In this document: positions 246 to 37,797 of the stretch, piece by piece
Layout: each line of letters starts with the position of its first letter
How positions within the stretch are numbered: position 1 is the stretch's first letter
Virus record (IMG/VR): IMGVR_UViG_3300023273_000787
Span: 1 to 46,353 of that record
Source of the DNA: a virus
DNA: 46,353 bases
Direction: 5' to 3' (one strand)
Position numbers and translations under genes: made by a program
The notes under the pieces: model-generated
The model's input: the letters and a program-made list of their open reading frames with translations, nothing else
The model's database searches: none
Told to the model about the DNA's origin: nothing

Positions 246-276
246 GAAGCATAAGTTGGAAATGAGGAGCAAGAAC

Positions 277-13299: not shown

Positions 13300-13530
13300 A
13301 TGGACGCTCTTAAAAAAGTAAAAGGTTGGGCAGGTTCACTAACAGAAGTTGGTGTTAGCCTAATCGCACTAGGTATTGTGCTAGAAGTGTTATTCAAAGG
13401 CGCAGTACCTTTTTGGTCAGACATCAGTGTCATTGAGAATGTTACAGGCATTATCAAAGGACTATCAGCAGAAGGCCTAGTAGGTCTAGTTGCTGTTTGG
13501 GTGTTATACCACATCTACAAAAGTAAGTAA
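13300..13530 (+). CDS. Small membrane protein, 76 residues
   Basis: A strong AAGGAGGAGAG precedes ATG 13300. Two hydrophobic segments (VGVSLIALGIVLEVLF, about residues 17-32, and AEGLVGLVAVWVLYHIY, about 56-72) flank a short loop; the C-terminus is KSK. The layout (basic N-terminus, two helices, basic C-terminus) fits a small holin-like or virion membrane protein. It is the last gene before an intrinsic terminator, so the pair closes a late transcription unit. Confidence 0.65.
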   Translation: MDALKKVKGWAGSLTEVGVSLIALGIVLEVLFKGAVPFWSDISVIENVTGIIKGLSAEGLVGLVAVWVLYHIYKSK

Positions 13531-26399: not shown

Positions 26400-27803
26400 A
26401 TGAAAAATTGGTTTACTATTCCAGGAATAGCCGAGGATGGATTGCAAACTTTAGAAAATAGGATACATGGATTGGGTTATATAAAAGATTTTTATACGAC
26501 CTATACTCATAATCATCCTGTATTTTTAGATTTGGGCAGCGCAGAAGGCCTAATAAGTGATTACGTTTTTGGTAAAGACAGTATTGTAACCTGCATTGAT
26601 GCTAATACTGATAGTATAGATATTGCTAAAAAAATTTATAAAGACCGCCCCAATTATAGTTTTCTTAATCTAGACTTAAACGAATTTAAAACCATAGACA
26701 GTCTTCAGAGGAAGTATGATTGTGTTCTTATGCTAGCAGTACTCCAAAAGTTAAAAGATCCGCTGGGTTTTTTAGACCATATAGTAAGTAGAACTCAGTC
26801 TTATATGTACTGTATACGAGTACCACAAAAGTTTTTGGATAGTTATGAAATCAAGTTTAAAAAAATTATGGAAACTCGATATGACCTTAACAGAAGAGTA
26901 ACTGGCGAACAGGACAATCAGGGTATACTATTTGTTTATGTTAGAAAAGGACATACTCTAAGAACAGCCAAACTTAATGAGAGTTATAAAAAAGTTATAG
27001 TAAAGTACAATGACCTTTTGGCCAGCGATACTGTATTGTGGAGTTTCCCTAAATCTGGCAGGACCTGGCTAAGATATTTGTTTGCTTGCTATGTGCAGCA
27101 CACAACTAGCCTAGCAAGTTTTAGTTTAGAATTTATCCCAGCGGAGGATTGGAACAAATATAGGCATCAGAGTGATTTCCCTCATATTCAGTTCACACAC
27201 AACTATTATGATCATTATCAGAATGAATTAGGCTACGACAGTATAATACATCAGGATGTTTTAGATACTAAACCAGTTATATTTCTACACCGCCACCCGC
27301 TGGATGTTATAGTAAGCTTCTATTATCAAAAAAAGCTTAGGGAAAAACAGTACTCGGGCAATTTAGAATCTTTTATTTTTGATAGCACTTATGGCATAGT
27401 AAGGCACATAAAATATATGAATACTGCGCTTGATTATCTGCAGAATAGGCAGAACGTTCTTTATGTTAGTTATGAAAAACTAAGACAAGATACAGAACGA
27501 GAAGTAAAAAGAATTTTTGATTTTATGAACTACAATTATAATAATGATGCTTTATTAAAAAGCATTTCAGATAGTGAATTTTCTCGTATGCAGGAACAAG
27601 AAATACTAGCTAGTAAAAAAAGCAAATTTGCGAAAACATCTAGACTGGGTATTAACAACTGGTCAGGCAGTTCCGACCAATTAAAAGCCAGAAAAGGTAT
27701 AGTCCATAACTACGAAAACGAATTGGGCAAACATTATTCAGAAAAACTTTTGTCTAATCCAGATATTAGTAATTTAATCCTTAGGCTTAGTTCTCTCAAC
27801 TAA
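26400..27803 (+). CDS. Methyltransferase-sulfotransferase fusion (467 aa)
   Basis: Residues 1-190 form a class I methyltransferase: VFLDLGSAEGLIS near 40-52, VTCIDANTDSIDIA near 62-75, YDCVLMLAVLQKLKDPLGFL near 105-124. Residues 205-467 form a PAPS-dependent sulfotransferase: 5'-phosphosulfate loop SFPKSGRTWLRYLF near 214-227, 3'-phosphate motif FLHRHPLDVIVSFYYQKK near 295-312, and RKGIVHNYEN near 430 in place of RKGxxGDW. It would transfer methyl and sulfate to the same acceptor, presumably a glycan. The 3' end overlaps the convergent gene by 30 bases. Sulfate donor supply may come from the APS-kinase-like protein at 42995. Confidence 0.8.
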   Translation: MKNWFTIPGIAEDGLQTLENRIHGLGYIKDFYTTYTHNHPVFLDLGSAEGLISDYVFGKDSIVTCIDANTDSIDIAKKIYKDRPNYSFLNLDLNEFKTIDSLQRKYDCVLMLAVLQKLKDPLGFLDHIVSRTQSYMYCIRVPQKFLDSYEIKFKKIMETRYDLNRRVTGEQDNQGILFVYVRKGHTLRTAKLNESYKKVIVKYNDLLASDTVLWSFPKSGRTWLRYLFACYVQHTTSLASFSLEFIPAEDWNKYRHQSDFPHIQFTHNYYDHYQNELGYDSIIHQDVLDTKPVIFLHRHPLDVIVSFYYQKKLREKQYSGNLESFIFDSTYGIVRHIKYMNTALDYLQNRQNVLYVSYEKLRQDTEREVKRIFDFMNYNYNNDALLKSISDSEFSRMQEQEILASKKSKFAKTSRLGINNWSGSSDQLKARKGIVHNYENELGKHYSEKLLSNPDISNLILRLSSLN

Positions 27804-35564: not shown

Positions 35565-35941
35565 TACGCAATCTCCATGTTCAGTTCGTCCACTGTATCA
35601 AAACCAAAACTAGCAACCATGTGGTACATGCCGTCCTGGTCCAGCACCACGTCACCAACGCTCAGGCTATGCATGGGAGCAAAACGCTCAATGTTCTCTT
35701 CAGGACCCATGTTACCAACGTGGAAAACACCTTCTAGGCTGTCAGCGGTAATGTTGCTAACATGCTCGTAGTAGCCTTTCTCAAAGGCTTCCTTAACCAG
35801 ATGCCCTACAGGCTTACCAAACGACATCTCAATCTTCATACGCAGCACGTTTTTGGGAACAGCGCCGTGATCGCCACTAGCGTTAATGGTATCAATCTCT
35901 TCATCAGTGAGATTAATCTGGAAAACCTTATAAACTGTCAT
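35564..35941 (-). CDS. Conserved early protein, unknown (125 aa)
   Basis: ATG 35941 is chosen because the shared leader GGAAATGAGGAGCAAG (35945-35960, minus) puts GAGGAGC 6 bases before it; an upstream in-frame ATG at 35956 lies within that leader. The product is an acidic protein with SLSVGDVVLDQDGMYHMVAS near residues 93-112, a small beta-barrel-like segment. First gene of an early minus-strand operon. Confidence 0.65.
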   Translation of the reverse strand: MTVYKVFQINLTDEEIDTINASGDHGAVPKNVLRMKIEMSFGKPVGHLVKEAFEKGYYEHVSNITADSLEGVFHVGNMGPEENIERFAPMHSLSVGDVVLDQDGMYHMVASFGFDTVDELNMEIA

Positions 35942-35969
35942 TTGCTTGCTCCTCATTTCCTATATATAC

Positions 35970-36378: not shown

Positions 36379-36387
36379 TAGAAACGG

Positions 36388-36415
36388 TTGACTGGAATAG
36401 CATCCGTGCTATTAT
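36388..36415 (+). promoter_or_regulatory. Early promoter TTGACT-N16-TATTAT
   Basis: TTGACT 36388-36393, TATTAT 36410-36415, core CCGTGCTATTAT identical to that at 235-245. The leader continues with GAAATTGAGGAGCAAC (36428-36443). Confidence 0.72.
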
Positions 36416-36445
36416 ACATTATAAGTTGAAATTGAGGAGCAACAG

Positions 36446-36577
36446 ATGACGGAAAAGAAAGCAAAGGCTTGGATTGAAGAAGTAACCATGGACTTTATGG
36501 AGATTGGTTACACCTACAACGCCGCAAACTCTCTTGCTTGGGCGAAGTTCTTCGAATTCGCTCCCAAAAAAGGTTGA
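36446..36577 (+). CDS. Tiny early protein, 43 residues
   Basis: ATG 36446 follows GAGGAGC (36434-36440). The product starts MTEKKAKAWIEEVTMDFMEI and ends FFEFAPKKG; it is helical with aromatic residues. Its TGA stop (36575-36577) lies inside the -35 box of the next promoter, so gene and promoter are as tightly packed as possible. Function unknown; the expression signals are the main support. Confidence 0.55.
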   Translation: MTEKKAKAWIEEVTMDFMEIGYTYNAANSLAWAKFFEFAPKKG

Positions 36578-36601
36578 CGCATCTGTATAAGGTGCTATTA
36601 T
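36574..36601 (+). promoter_or_regulatory. Early promoter TTGACG-N16-TATTAT of the AAA ATPase
   Basis: TTGACG 36574-36579 and TATTAT 36596-36601 with GTGC before the -10. The leader GGAAATGAGGAGCAAG (36615-36630) precedes ATG 36636. Confidence 0.72.
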
Positions 36602-36635
36602 TAGTGTGTAAGTTGGAAATGAGGAGCAAGACACA

Positions 36636-37688
36636 ATGTCTTACGTTTTGATCAAAGAAGGTACGTACCGCAACAATCCTGTACAAAACACCGTTTTTCC
36701 GGTTGTTAAGGATTTTACTGAAGGTGCTAAGGGTACCTACATTACGGTAGACGCTAGCAAGATTATTGCTGGGCGTGATACCATCCGCATCAACGTTGCT
36801 AGCAAGGACGATGCAGTGTTCGTAGAAGCCGATGCGTTTGAGGCGCAGCAGGGTGCAAAGGTTGCTACTGCTGAAGTCGCTCGTAAGAAAGGCGAACGTG
36901 AATATACTGCTGAAGAAGATGAACAGCGTATGAACGAGATTGAGGAGCGTTTTGAGATCCTCAATGAAATGACTGGCGCTCTTAAGAGCGGCGACATTCG
37001 TGCAATGATTGTGTCGGGCCCTCCGGGTGTTGGCAAGAGCTACGGTGTTACGCAGACTCTAGAAGAGCAGAGCATCTTCGAGGATATTGGCGGAAAGCGC
37101 CGTAAGTTTGAGGTTGTAAAGGGTGCGATGACTGCACTAGGCTTGTATGCTAAACTCTACGAGTACAGCGACAAAGGTAGCGTGGTTGTGTTCGACGACT
37201 GCGATAGTGTGCTTATGGATGATCTCGCACTGAACATTCTTAAGGCTGCACTTGATAGTGGCAAGAAGCGCAAGATCTTCTGGAACGCAGATAGTGCTAA
37301 GTTGCGTAACGAGGGCATTCCTAACAATTTTGAGTTCAAGGGTACTGCTTGCTTTATTACGAACATCAAGTTTGAGAATATCAAGAGCAAGCGTCTGCAG
37401 GATCACCTGGAAGCCCTGCAGAGCCGTTGCCACTATCTGGATCTCACGCTGGATACAATGCGCGACAAGTACCTGCGTATCCGGCAGATTGCACGTACTG
37501 GTACGCTTTGGGGCAGTGAATACGGTTTCTCAAAAGAAGAAGAGCAGGAGATCCTGGACTTCATGTACGAGAATCGTAACAAGCTACGTGAAATGAGCCT
37601 GCGTATGGCACTGAAGATTGCAGATCTCAAGAAGATCTCAGAAAAGTGGCGCATGCTTGCAGAAAGTACTTGCATGCGGCGCGTATAA
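36636..37688 (+). CDS. AAA-family ATPase (350 aa)
   Basis: Walker A SGPPGVGKS at about residues 126-134 and Walker B SVVVFDDCDS near 182-191, with an arginine-finger-like region after QSRCHYLDLTLD. The N-terminal 120 residues are a small beta domain and a charged helix (EEDEQRMNEIEERFEILNEM). It is not gp44: the clamp-loader motifs differ. Such single-copy AAA proteins are common in marine T4-like phages, with unknown roles (protein or nucleic-acid remodelling). It has an early promoter and GAGGAGC leader; a promoter and hairpin follow its stop. Confidence 0.75.
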   Translation: MSYVLIKEGTYRNNPVQNTVFPVVKDFTEGAKGTYITVDASKIIAGRDTIRINVASKDDAVFVEADAFEAQQGAKVATAEVARKKGEREYTAEEDEQRMNEIEERFEILNEMTGALKSGDIRAMIVSGPPGVGKSYGVTQTLEEQSIFEDIGGKRRKFEVVKGAMTALGLYAKLYEYSDKGSVVVFDDCDSVLMDDLALNILKAALDSGKKRKIFWNADSAKLRNEGIPNNFEFKGTACFITNIKFENIKSKRLQDHLEALQSRCHYLDLTLDTMRDKYLRIRQIARTGTLWGSEYGFSKEEEQEILDFMYENRNKLREMSLRMALKIADLKKISEKWRMLAESTCMRRV

Positions 37689-37698
37689 TTAGTATAAT
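37670..37698 (+). promoter_or_regulatory. Promoter of the candidate small RNA
   Basis: TTGCAT (37670-37675), 17-base spacer, TATAAT (37693-37698). The expected start near 37705 is exactly the first base of the 37705-37747 hairpin. A second TATAAT (37684-37689) overlaps the ATPase stop. Confidence 0.62.
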
Positions 37699-37704
37699 AA
37701 GAAT

Positions 37705-37788
37705 ATAACTGCACCACGCTCCTCCTCCTCCTCAGAGGTGCAGTTATTGGGACGGTGGGTCTAGAATATAGACCCGCCGTTTCCTTTT
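37705..37788 (+). ncRNA. Candidate small RNA with anti-Shine-Dalgarno loop
   Basis: Two stem-loops. The first has an 11-bp perfect stem (37705-37715 with 37737-37747) and a 21-base loop whose core is GCTCCTCCTCCTCCTC. The second is the terminator at 37752-37787. GCTCCTC in the loop is the exact complement of GAGGAGC, the ribosome site in the early leaders at 258-273, 35945-35960 (minus), 36428-36443 and 36615-36630. Known analogues of the C-rich-loop logic are RsaE-type and CCUCC-motif sRNAs. The RNA could also be a 3' UTR product of the ATPase mRNA. No protein is encoded in it. Confidence 0.6.
37752..37787 (+). terminator. Intrinsic terminator of the candidate small RNA
   Basis: 12-bp stem ACGGTGGGTCTA / TAGACCCGCCGT (one G-U pair), loop GAATA, tail TTCCTTTT. 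Confidence 0.82.
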
Positions 37789-37797
37789 GTGTATAAT
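37769..37797 (+). promoter_or_regulatory. Promoter giving a leaderless SGNH-hydrolase mRNA
   Basis: TATAAT at 37792-37797, TAGACC at 37769-37774 (spacer 17) inside the terminator stem; 6 bases to ATG 37804, at the expected +1. No Shine-Dalgarno. Confidence 0.6.

Follow-up and report, generated by a model that had tools for sequence, protein, structure and literature searches.

A candidate anti-leader RNA encoded at the 3′ end of an NrdC.10-like ATPase gene in aquatic T4-like phages

The window, which is the whole stretch of 46,353 nucleotides analyzed here (IMG/VR record IMGVR_UViG_3300023273_000787), is a contig of a T4-like aquatic phage with genes for a tail sheath, a T4-type terminase, and a UvsW-like helicase. 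An AAA ATPase gene at 36636–37688, whose counterpart in T4 is nrdC.10, hosts an RNA element at its 3′ end. The protein family (phrog_1250) is labeled as of unknown function in PHROGs. A search of PDB sequences with the ATPase found no match, PADLOC found nothing, and megablast of the 35–40 kb region against phages found no match. Elsewhere in the window, an ORF at 26400–27803 fuses a methyltransferase domain and a sulfotransferase domain. The features of the ATPase locus and of the related leaders are as follows.

264..273, plus strand: second GAGGAGCAAG leader; GTG start codon at 277 (48 aa)
35945..35954, minus strand: third GAGGAGCAAG leader; ATG start codon at 35941 (125 aa)
36434..36442, plus strand: fourth leader, containing GAGGAGCAA; ATG start codon at 36446 (43 aa)
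36574..36601, plus strand: promoter of early type for the ATPase, TTGACG-N16-TATTAT, its -10 preceded by GTGC (evidence: sequence)
36614..36635, plus strand: ATPase leader with GAGGAGCAAG at 36621-36630, the conserved pairing target (evidence: sequence; covariation with the 3′ segment in 101 lineages)
36636..37688, plus strand: AAA ATPase, T4 NrdC.10 family, phrog_1250 (evidence: PHROGs, E value 2.9e-83; T4 and KVP40 annotation)
37670..37698, plus strand: TTGCAT-N17-TATAAT, a promoter-like site that overlaps the 3′ end of the ATPase gene and is found in only part of the clade (evidence: sequence)
37705..37747, plus strand: hairpin of 11 bp with the anti-leader loop GCTCCTCCTCCTCCTC at 37718-37733 (evidence: fold; relatives, with a rewritten stem and the loop function kept)
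37749..37783, plus strand: terminator-like hairpin of 15 bp, then a T-rich stretch (evidence: fold; similar in the relatives folded)

A sequence-only reading of this DNA had proposed a strong terminator preceded by a promoter-like site and by a hairpin of 11 bp whose loop is rich in C and U, and all three are present at these positions. TTGCAT (37670–37675) and TATAAT (37693–37698) are separated by a spacer of 17 nt and would place the transcription start at about 37705; the TTGCAT hexamer, as a -35, shares bases with Cys-Met codons conserved in the ATPase. The predicted minimum free energy of 37705–37790 is -40.6 kcal/mol. The exact match between the loop and the leader is only 7 nt long in the window and is worth about -14 to -18 kcal/mol.

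The four leaders with GAGGAGC that had been claimed, one of them on the minus strand, were all found ahead of start codons. On the plus strand, the motif occurs at 264, 36434, and 36621, and on the minus strand it occupies 35948–35954; in each case a start codon follows 1–13 nt downstream. All four leaders are preceded by a promoter-like TTGAC / TATTAT (or TAATAT), and the GTGCTATTAT arrangement of the ATPase promoter recurs before those at 264 and 36434, while the minus-strand leader at 35954 has it in the form GTGCTAATAT. Each of the four early regions (213–300, 36384–36460, 36561–36650, and the minus strand near 35954) reads as TTGAC with a GTGCTATTAT or GTGCTAATAT promoter followed by a GGAAATGAGGAGCAA-like leader. 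An additional GAGGAGC at 36942, absent from the earlier reading, lies within the ATPase gene. Across both strands of the 46-kb window, six copies of the 7-mer were found and about five to six are expected by chance, so the raw match is unremarkable; the unusual points are that, outside the element, four of five copies stand exactly at early leaders and that the pairing is kept in related phages. A further fit had been claimed for the gene at 13300, where AGGAGGAG is indeed found, yet this site is outside the conserved system and would fit any CUCC repeat rather than the shared leader. Because the window alone allows no strong claim, relatives were used for the test.

A scan of IMG/VR with the ATPase yielded 27 loci, and wider scans yielded 304 loci that were dereplicated to 101 lineages. 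A scan of viral contigs with CTTGCTCCTCCTCC was too unspecific for use. Close relatives have a hairpin after the ATPase gene with another stem and a CU-rich loop; this loop often reads CUUGCUCCUC, which exactly complements all 10 nt of the leader GAGGAGCAAG. Distant relatives have another segment that matches their own, differing leader. Leader and segment have changed jointly in pairs such as GGAGGAGCAA/UUGCUCCUCC, GAGCUAGACA/UGUCUAGCUC, AGGAGCAUUC/GAAUGCUCCU, UAACGGAGUAUC/GAUACUCCGUUA, and GAGGGCA/UGCCCUC.

We scored the longest exact complement between each lineage's own leader (22 nt) and its own 3′ region (125 nt) and compared it with permuted, swapped pairs. Among 55 dereplicated loci, the mean complement was 7.20 nt for own pairs versus 5.92 nt for swapped pairs, and none of 100,000 permutations reached the observed mean. 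Across the 101 lineages, the means were 7.21 nt and 5.84 nt (z of 11.9; 0 of 100,000 permutations), in tests that are conservative owing to swaps between related lineages, that use no explicit tree, and in which start codons were assigned by rule. A complement of at least 8 nt is present in 41 of 101 lineages, compared with 11 expected by permutation (permutation maximum of 24). Scoring of the match outside the GGAG/CTCC core only, meant to exclude a trivial effect of Shine-Dalgarno (SD) and anti-SD sequences, gave 4.02 nt versus 1.73 nt for swapped pairs, again with 0 of 100,000 permutations. The pattern is also nearly specific to the gene: among 1183 genes in 18 contigs, a complement of at least 10 nt links the leader and the 3′ region of one and the same gene in only seven cases, five of which are the NrdC.10-like ATPase. 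The exact match in L007/L008 is only 6 nt, and some lineages are without any match. This covariation lends good support to the core reading, in which the element would encode an anti-leader RNA and the upstream ATPase would be among its targets.

Features of the element are shared across the loci that were folded. The segment lies 0–80 nt past the stop codon of the ATPase gene and is followed by a terminator-like hairpin. It is predicted to be mostly in a hairpin loop and, in L033, L052, and L109, to be single-stranded right after the stop codon. In the wider clade of the window, all but one of 14 hairpins have stems of 8–12 bp, and the nine loop-proximal stem pairs show three to five standard pair types per position, indicating that the stem is kept as a structure and not as a sequence. 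A stem conserved among relatives on which the loop is not had been named by the sequence-only reading as evidence against its proposal, and the opposite was found: stems are rewritten by compensatory pairs and the complementarity of loop to leader is retained. The window and at least seven relatives have the promoter-like site intact, and others lack it; because it is complete in only part of the window's own clade, it is not a general feature. Two loci (L015 after 3762 and L025 after 654) have two consecutive hairpins past the ATPase gene that differ in their stems, have CU-rich loops, and each have their own terminator-like hairpin. In L491, three consecutive tRNA genes (401–649) are upstream of the ATPase gene. 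A search of Rfam found no family for the element, and a search for tRNA and tmRNA found none.

The target that is constant in all clades is the leader of the element's own host gene, and in G014, G020, G022, and G023 it is the sole clear target. Other clades have more candidates. In the GAGGGC clade, GCCCTC is present in the 3′ region of all 23 dereplicated lineages examined, in one to four copies each and in more than one copy in 20 of them, and 42 of 55 copies are mostly unpaired in the predicted fold. This clade includes L110 and L478–L516 as well as contigs G024, G025, G026, G029, and G030. In five contigs of the clade, GAGGGC is found directly before 6–18 start codons, a few of which are antisense or start-codon artifacts, mostly near the ATPase gene and often with a predicted promoter. 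Neighboring early genes share the ATPase leader in the GGAGAGAG clade and in the GAGGAGC clade of the window as well. Across 22 contigs, leaders other than that of the ATPase gene fit their own element better than swapped ones (k=8: 0.057 vs. 0.033; 204 of 50,000 permutations), an excess driven by the GAGGGC clade and the window. Self-targeting is thus predicted to be general and a shared early regulon to be clade-dependent. The earlier claim that the RNA targets early genes is upheld for the upstream ATPase, whose leader is complementary, and needs narrowing otherwise, as several early-gene targets are found in some clades only.

We consider it probable that an anti-leader RNA encoded in the 3′ UTR represses its host ATPase gene and, in certain clades, also an early regulon. 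In this view, a short unpaired segment followed by a terminator would be encoded where the NrdC.10-like ATPase gene ends; by pairing with the SD region on the mRNA of the ATPase itself, the segment would block ribosome binding. The ATPase would thereby limit its own synthesis, either as negative feedback or as an early shut-off. In some lineages, a trans-acting small RNA (sRNA), produced from its own promoter in the clade of the window or released from the 3′ end of the mRNA, probably represses early genes that share the same leader. The sequences themselves show the complementarity and its covariation, its near-specificity for this gene, a segment whose exposure is conserved, and, in some clades, shared leaders; we infer the existence of the transcript, repression by pairing, and trans action. 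Translational repression is the likeliest effect because the segment is complementary to the ribosome-binding site, has an exposed seed, and is followed by a terminator. Repeated loops, shared leaders, and a clade-specific promoter favor trans action as likely, at least in some clades. In the GAGGGC clade it is likely because hairpins repeat the same loop and 6–18 clustered early genes share the target, but it is not expected to be general because several clades have no evident second target.

If true, an RNA-based feedback loop would operate across a very large group of aquatic T4-like phages and could be recognized in sequence alone, owing to the joint rewriting of seed and target. Coevolution between an sRNA seed and its target could be studied in a clean system, and the post-transcriptional shut-off of early genes in phages would gain a candidate mechanism. 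For the NrdC.10 family, which has no assigned function and is named in one paper of the literature searched, it would provide a first point of entry into regulation.

Action could instead be strictly in cis: as in icaR, the 3′ UTR would fold onto the 5′ leader within one mRNA molecule, and no free sRNA would take part. That the constant target is the element's own mRNA is in keeping with this, as are L033, L052, and L109, in which the segment begins a few nucleotides past the stop codon and leaves no space for a separate promoter downstream of the gene. Arguing against strict cis action are the GAGGGC clade, in which identical loops are repeated and many genes share the target, and the clade of the window, in which leaders are shared and a separate promoter-like site is present; moreover, the seed in the 3′ UTR of OppZ acts against its own leader as a free sRNA (PMC7398697). 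We regard an exclusively cis mechanism as unlikely but as deserving some weight. It is highly improbable that the RNA serves as a generic anti-SD decoy or imitates the 16S 3′ end so as to titrate ribosomes or mRNAs in general. Rich in CUCC, the loop in the window would match many SD sequences, that before 13300 among them, but segments such as UGUCUAGCUC, GAAUGCUCCU, and GAUACUCCGUUA are unlike the 16S 3′ end. The mimicry suggested by the sequence-only reading also finds no support in the pairing, which reaches past the SD core and covaries in bases outside it.

A GGAG-specific nuclease such as T4 RegB is known from T4-like phages, and pairing covers GGAG in most lineages, so protection or activation of the mRNA, by shielding of its 5′ end or against such a nuclease, can be envisaged. 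Yet a leader that is paired over its own SD cannot bind a ribosome, and the known pairings of a 3′ UTR with an SD in OppZ, CarZ, and icaR repress (PMC7398697, PMC3868564); we see little prospect for a protective role. Least plausible of all, and scarcely credible, is that the element is an ordinary pair of terminator hairpins, or a site for a C/U-specific protein such as Rho, and that the match to the leader is incidental. The CU-rich loops in the clade of the window suit such a protein and a terminator follows them, but segments in L042, L069, and L052 are not CU-rich and still match their own leader, and neither protein binding nor termination predicts covariation with a leader. An anti-leader RNA that represses translation remains our preferred reading.

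Cultured phages may allow experiments. No convincing element was found in T4, KVP40, Ackermannviridae, or the other enterobacterial or Vibrio isolates examined. In Roseobacter phage RDJL Phi 2, which infects R. denitrificans OCh114, GUCGCUGGU in the 3′ UTR is complementary over 9 nt to the leader ACCAGCGAC (predicted duplex of -18.4 kcal/mol) and a terminator is directly behind it. The phage is a good candidate carrier of the element, which makes an experiment possible. Pseudomonas aeruginosa phages of the PA5oct/Paride group are weaker candidates: after 2034 in Paride (L244), 8 nt plus G-U pairs match the ATPase's own leader, and one arm of the 3′ hairpin has the leader's AGTAGC and the other arm its complement. 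In G012 (L284), the 3′ region of the gene at 109118 has TCTCCTTTA, which is complementary to its own leader and to that of the close next gene; this site is possibly a local SD-sequestering hairpin.

Mechanistic precedents are known in bacteria; in the literature searched, which left most subscription journals outside its coverage, nothing was found on this element and no phage element with coevolving seed and target was found. The αr14 or cuckoo RNAs, such as NfeR1, expose the same anti-SD motif, CCUCCUCCC, in each of several hairpins, the stems of which diverge (PMC10746234; Rfam RF02344). The multi-hairpin GCCCUC clade resembles them in its repeated loops on diverging stems. The window scored 26.9 bits against RF02344, below the gathering cut-off of 58.8, the family was not found in relatives L003, L009, and L478, and the loop motif varies by lineage instead of conserving CCUCCUCCC, all of which argue against membership. 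Whereas αr14 RNAs are bacterial and use one ultraconserved generic motif, the phage motif is lineage-specific and matches the leader of its own gene.

In the icaR mRNA of Staphylococcus aureus (PLoS Genet 2013), UCCCCUG in the 3′ UTR pairs with the mRNA's own SD and blocks initiation (PMC3868564). The phage 3′ UTR likewise contains a motif that complements the SD of its own mRNA. However, icaR is a single bacterial mRNA that acts with RNase III and has been called a singular example (PMC3868564), whereas the element described here belongs to a large family of phage genes and, in some clades, other early genes are likely targets. OppZ and CarZ of Vibrio cholerae (eLife 2020) are autoregulatory sRNAs derived from 3′ UTRs whose seeds act against the translation start region of the same mRNA in negative feedback (PMC7398697). 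They depend on Hfq and are released by RNase E at the stop codon, and OppZ is 52 nt long (PMC7398697). The phage element, too, is in the 3′ UTR of its target and ends at a terminator, and its seed is complementary to its own translation start region (z of 11.9), also outside the SD core. It differs from OppZ and CarZ in that the gene is of a phage, the segment is usually in a hairpin loop, and seed and target have been rewritten together between lineages.
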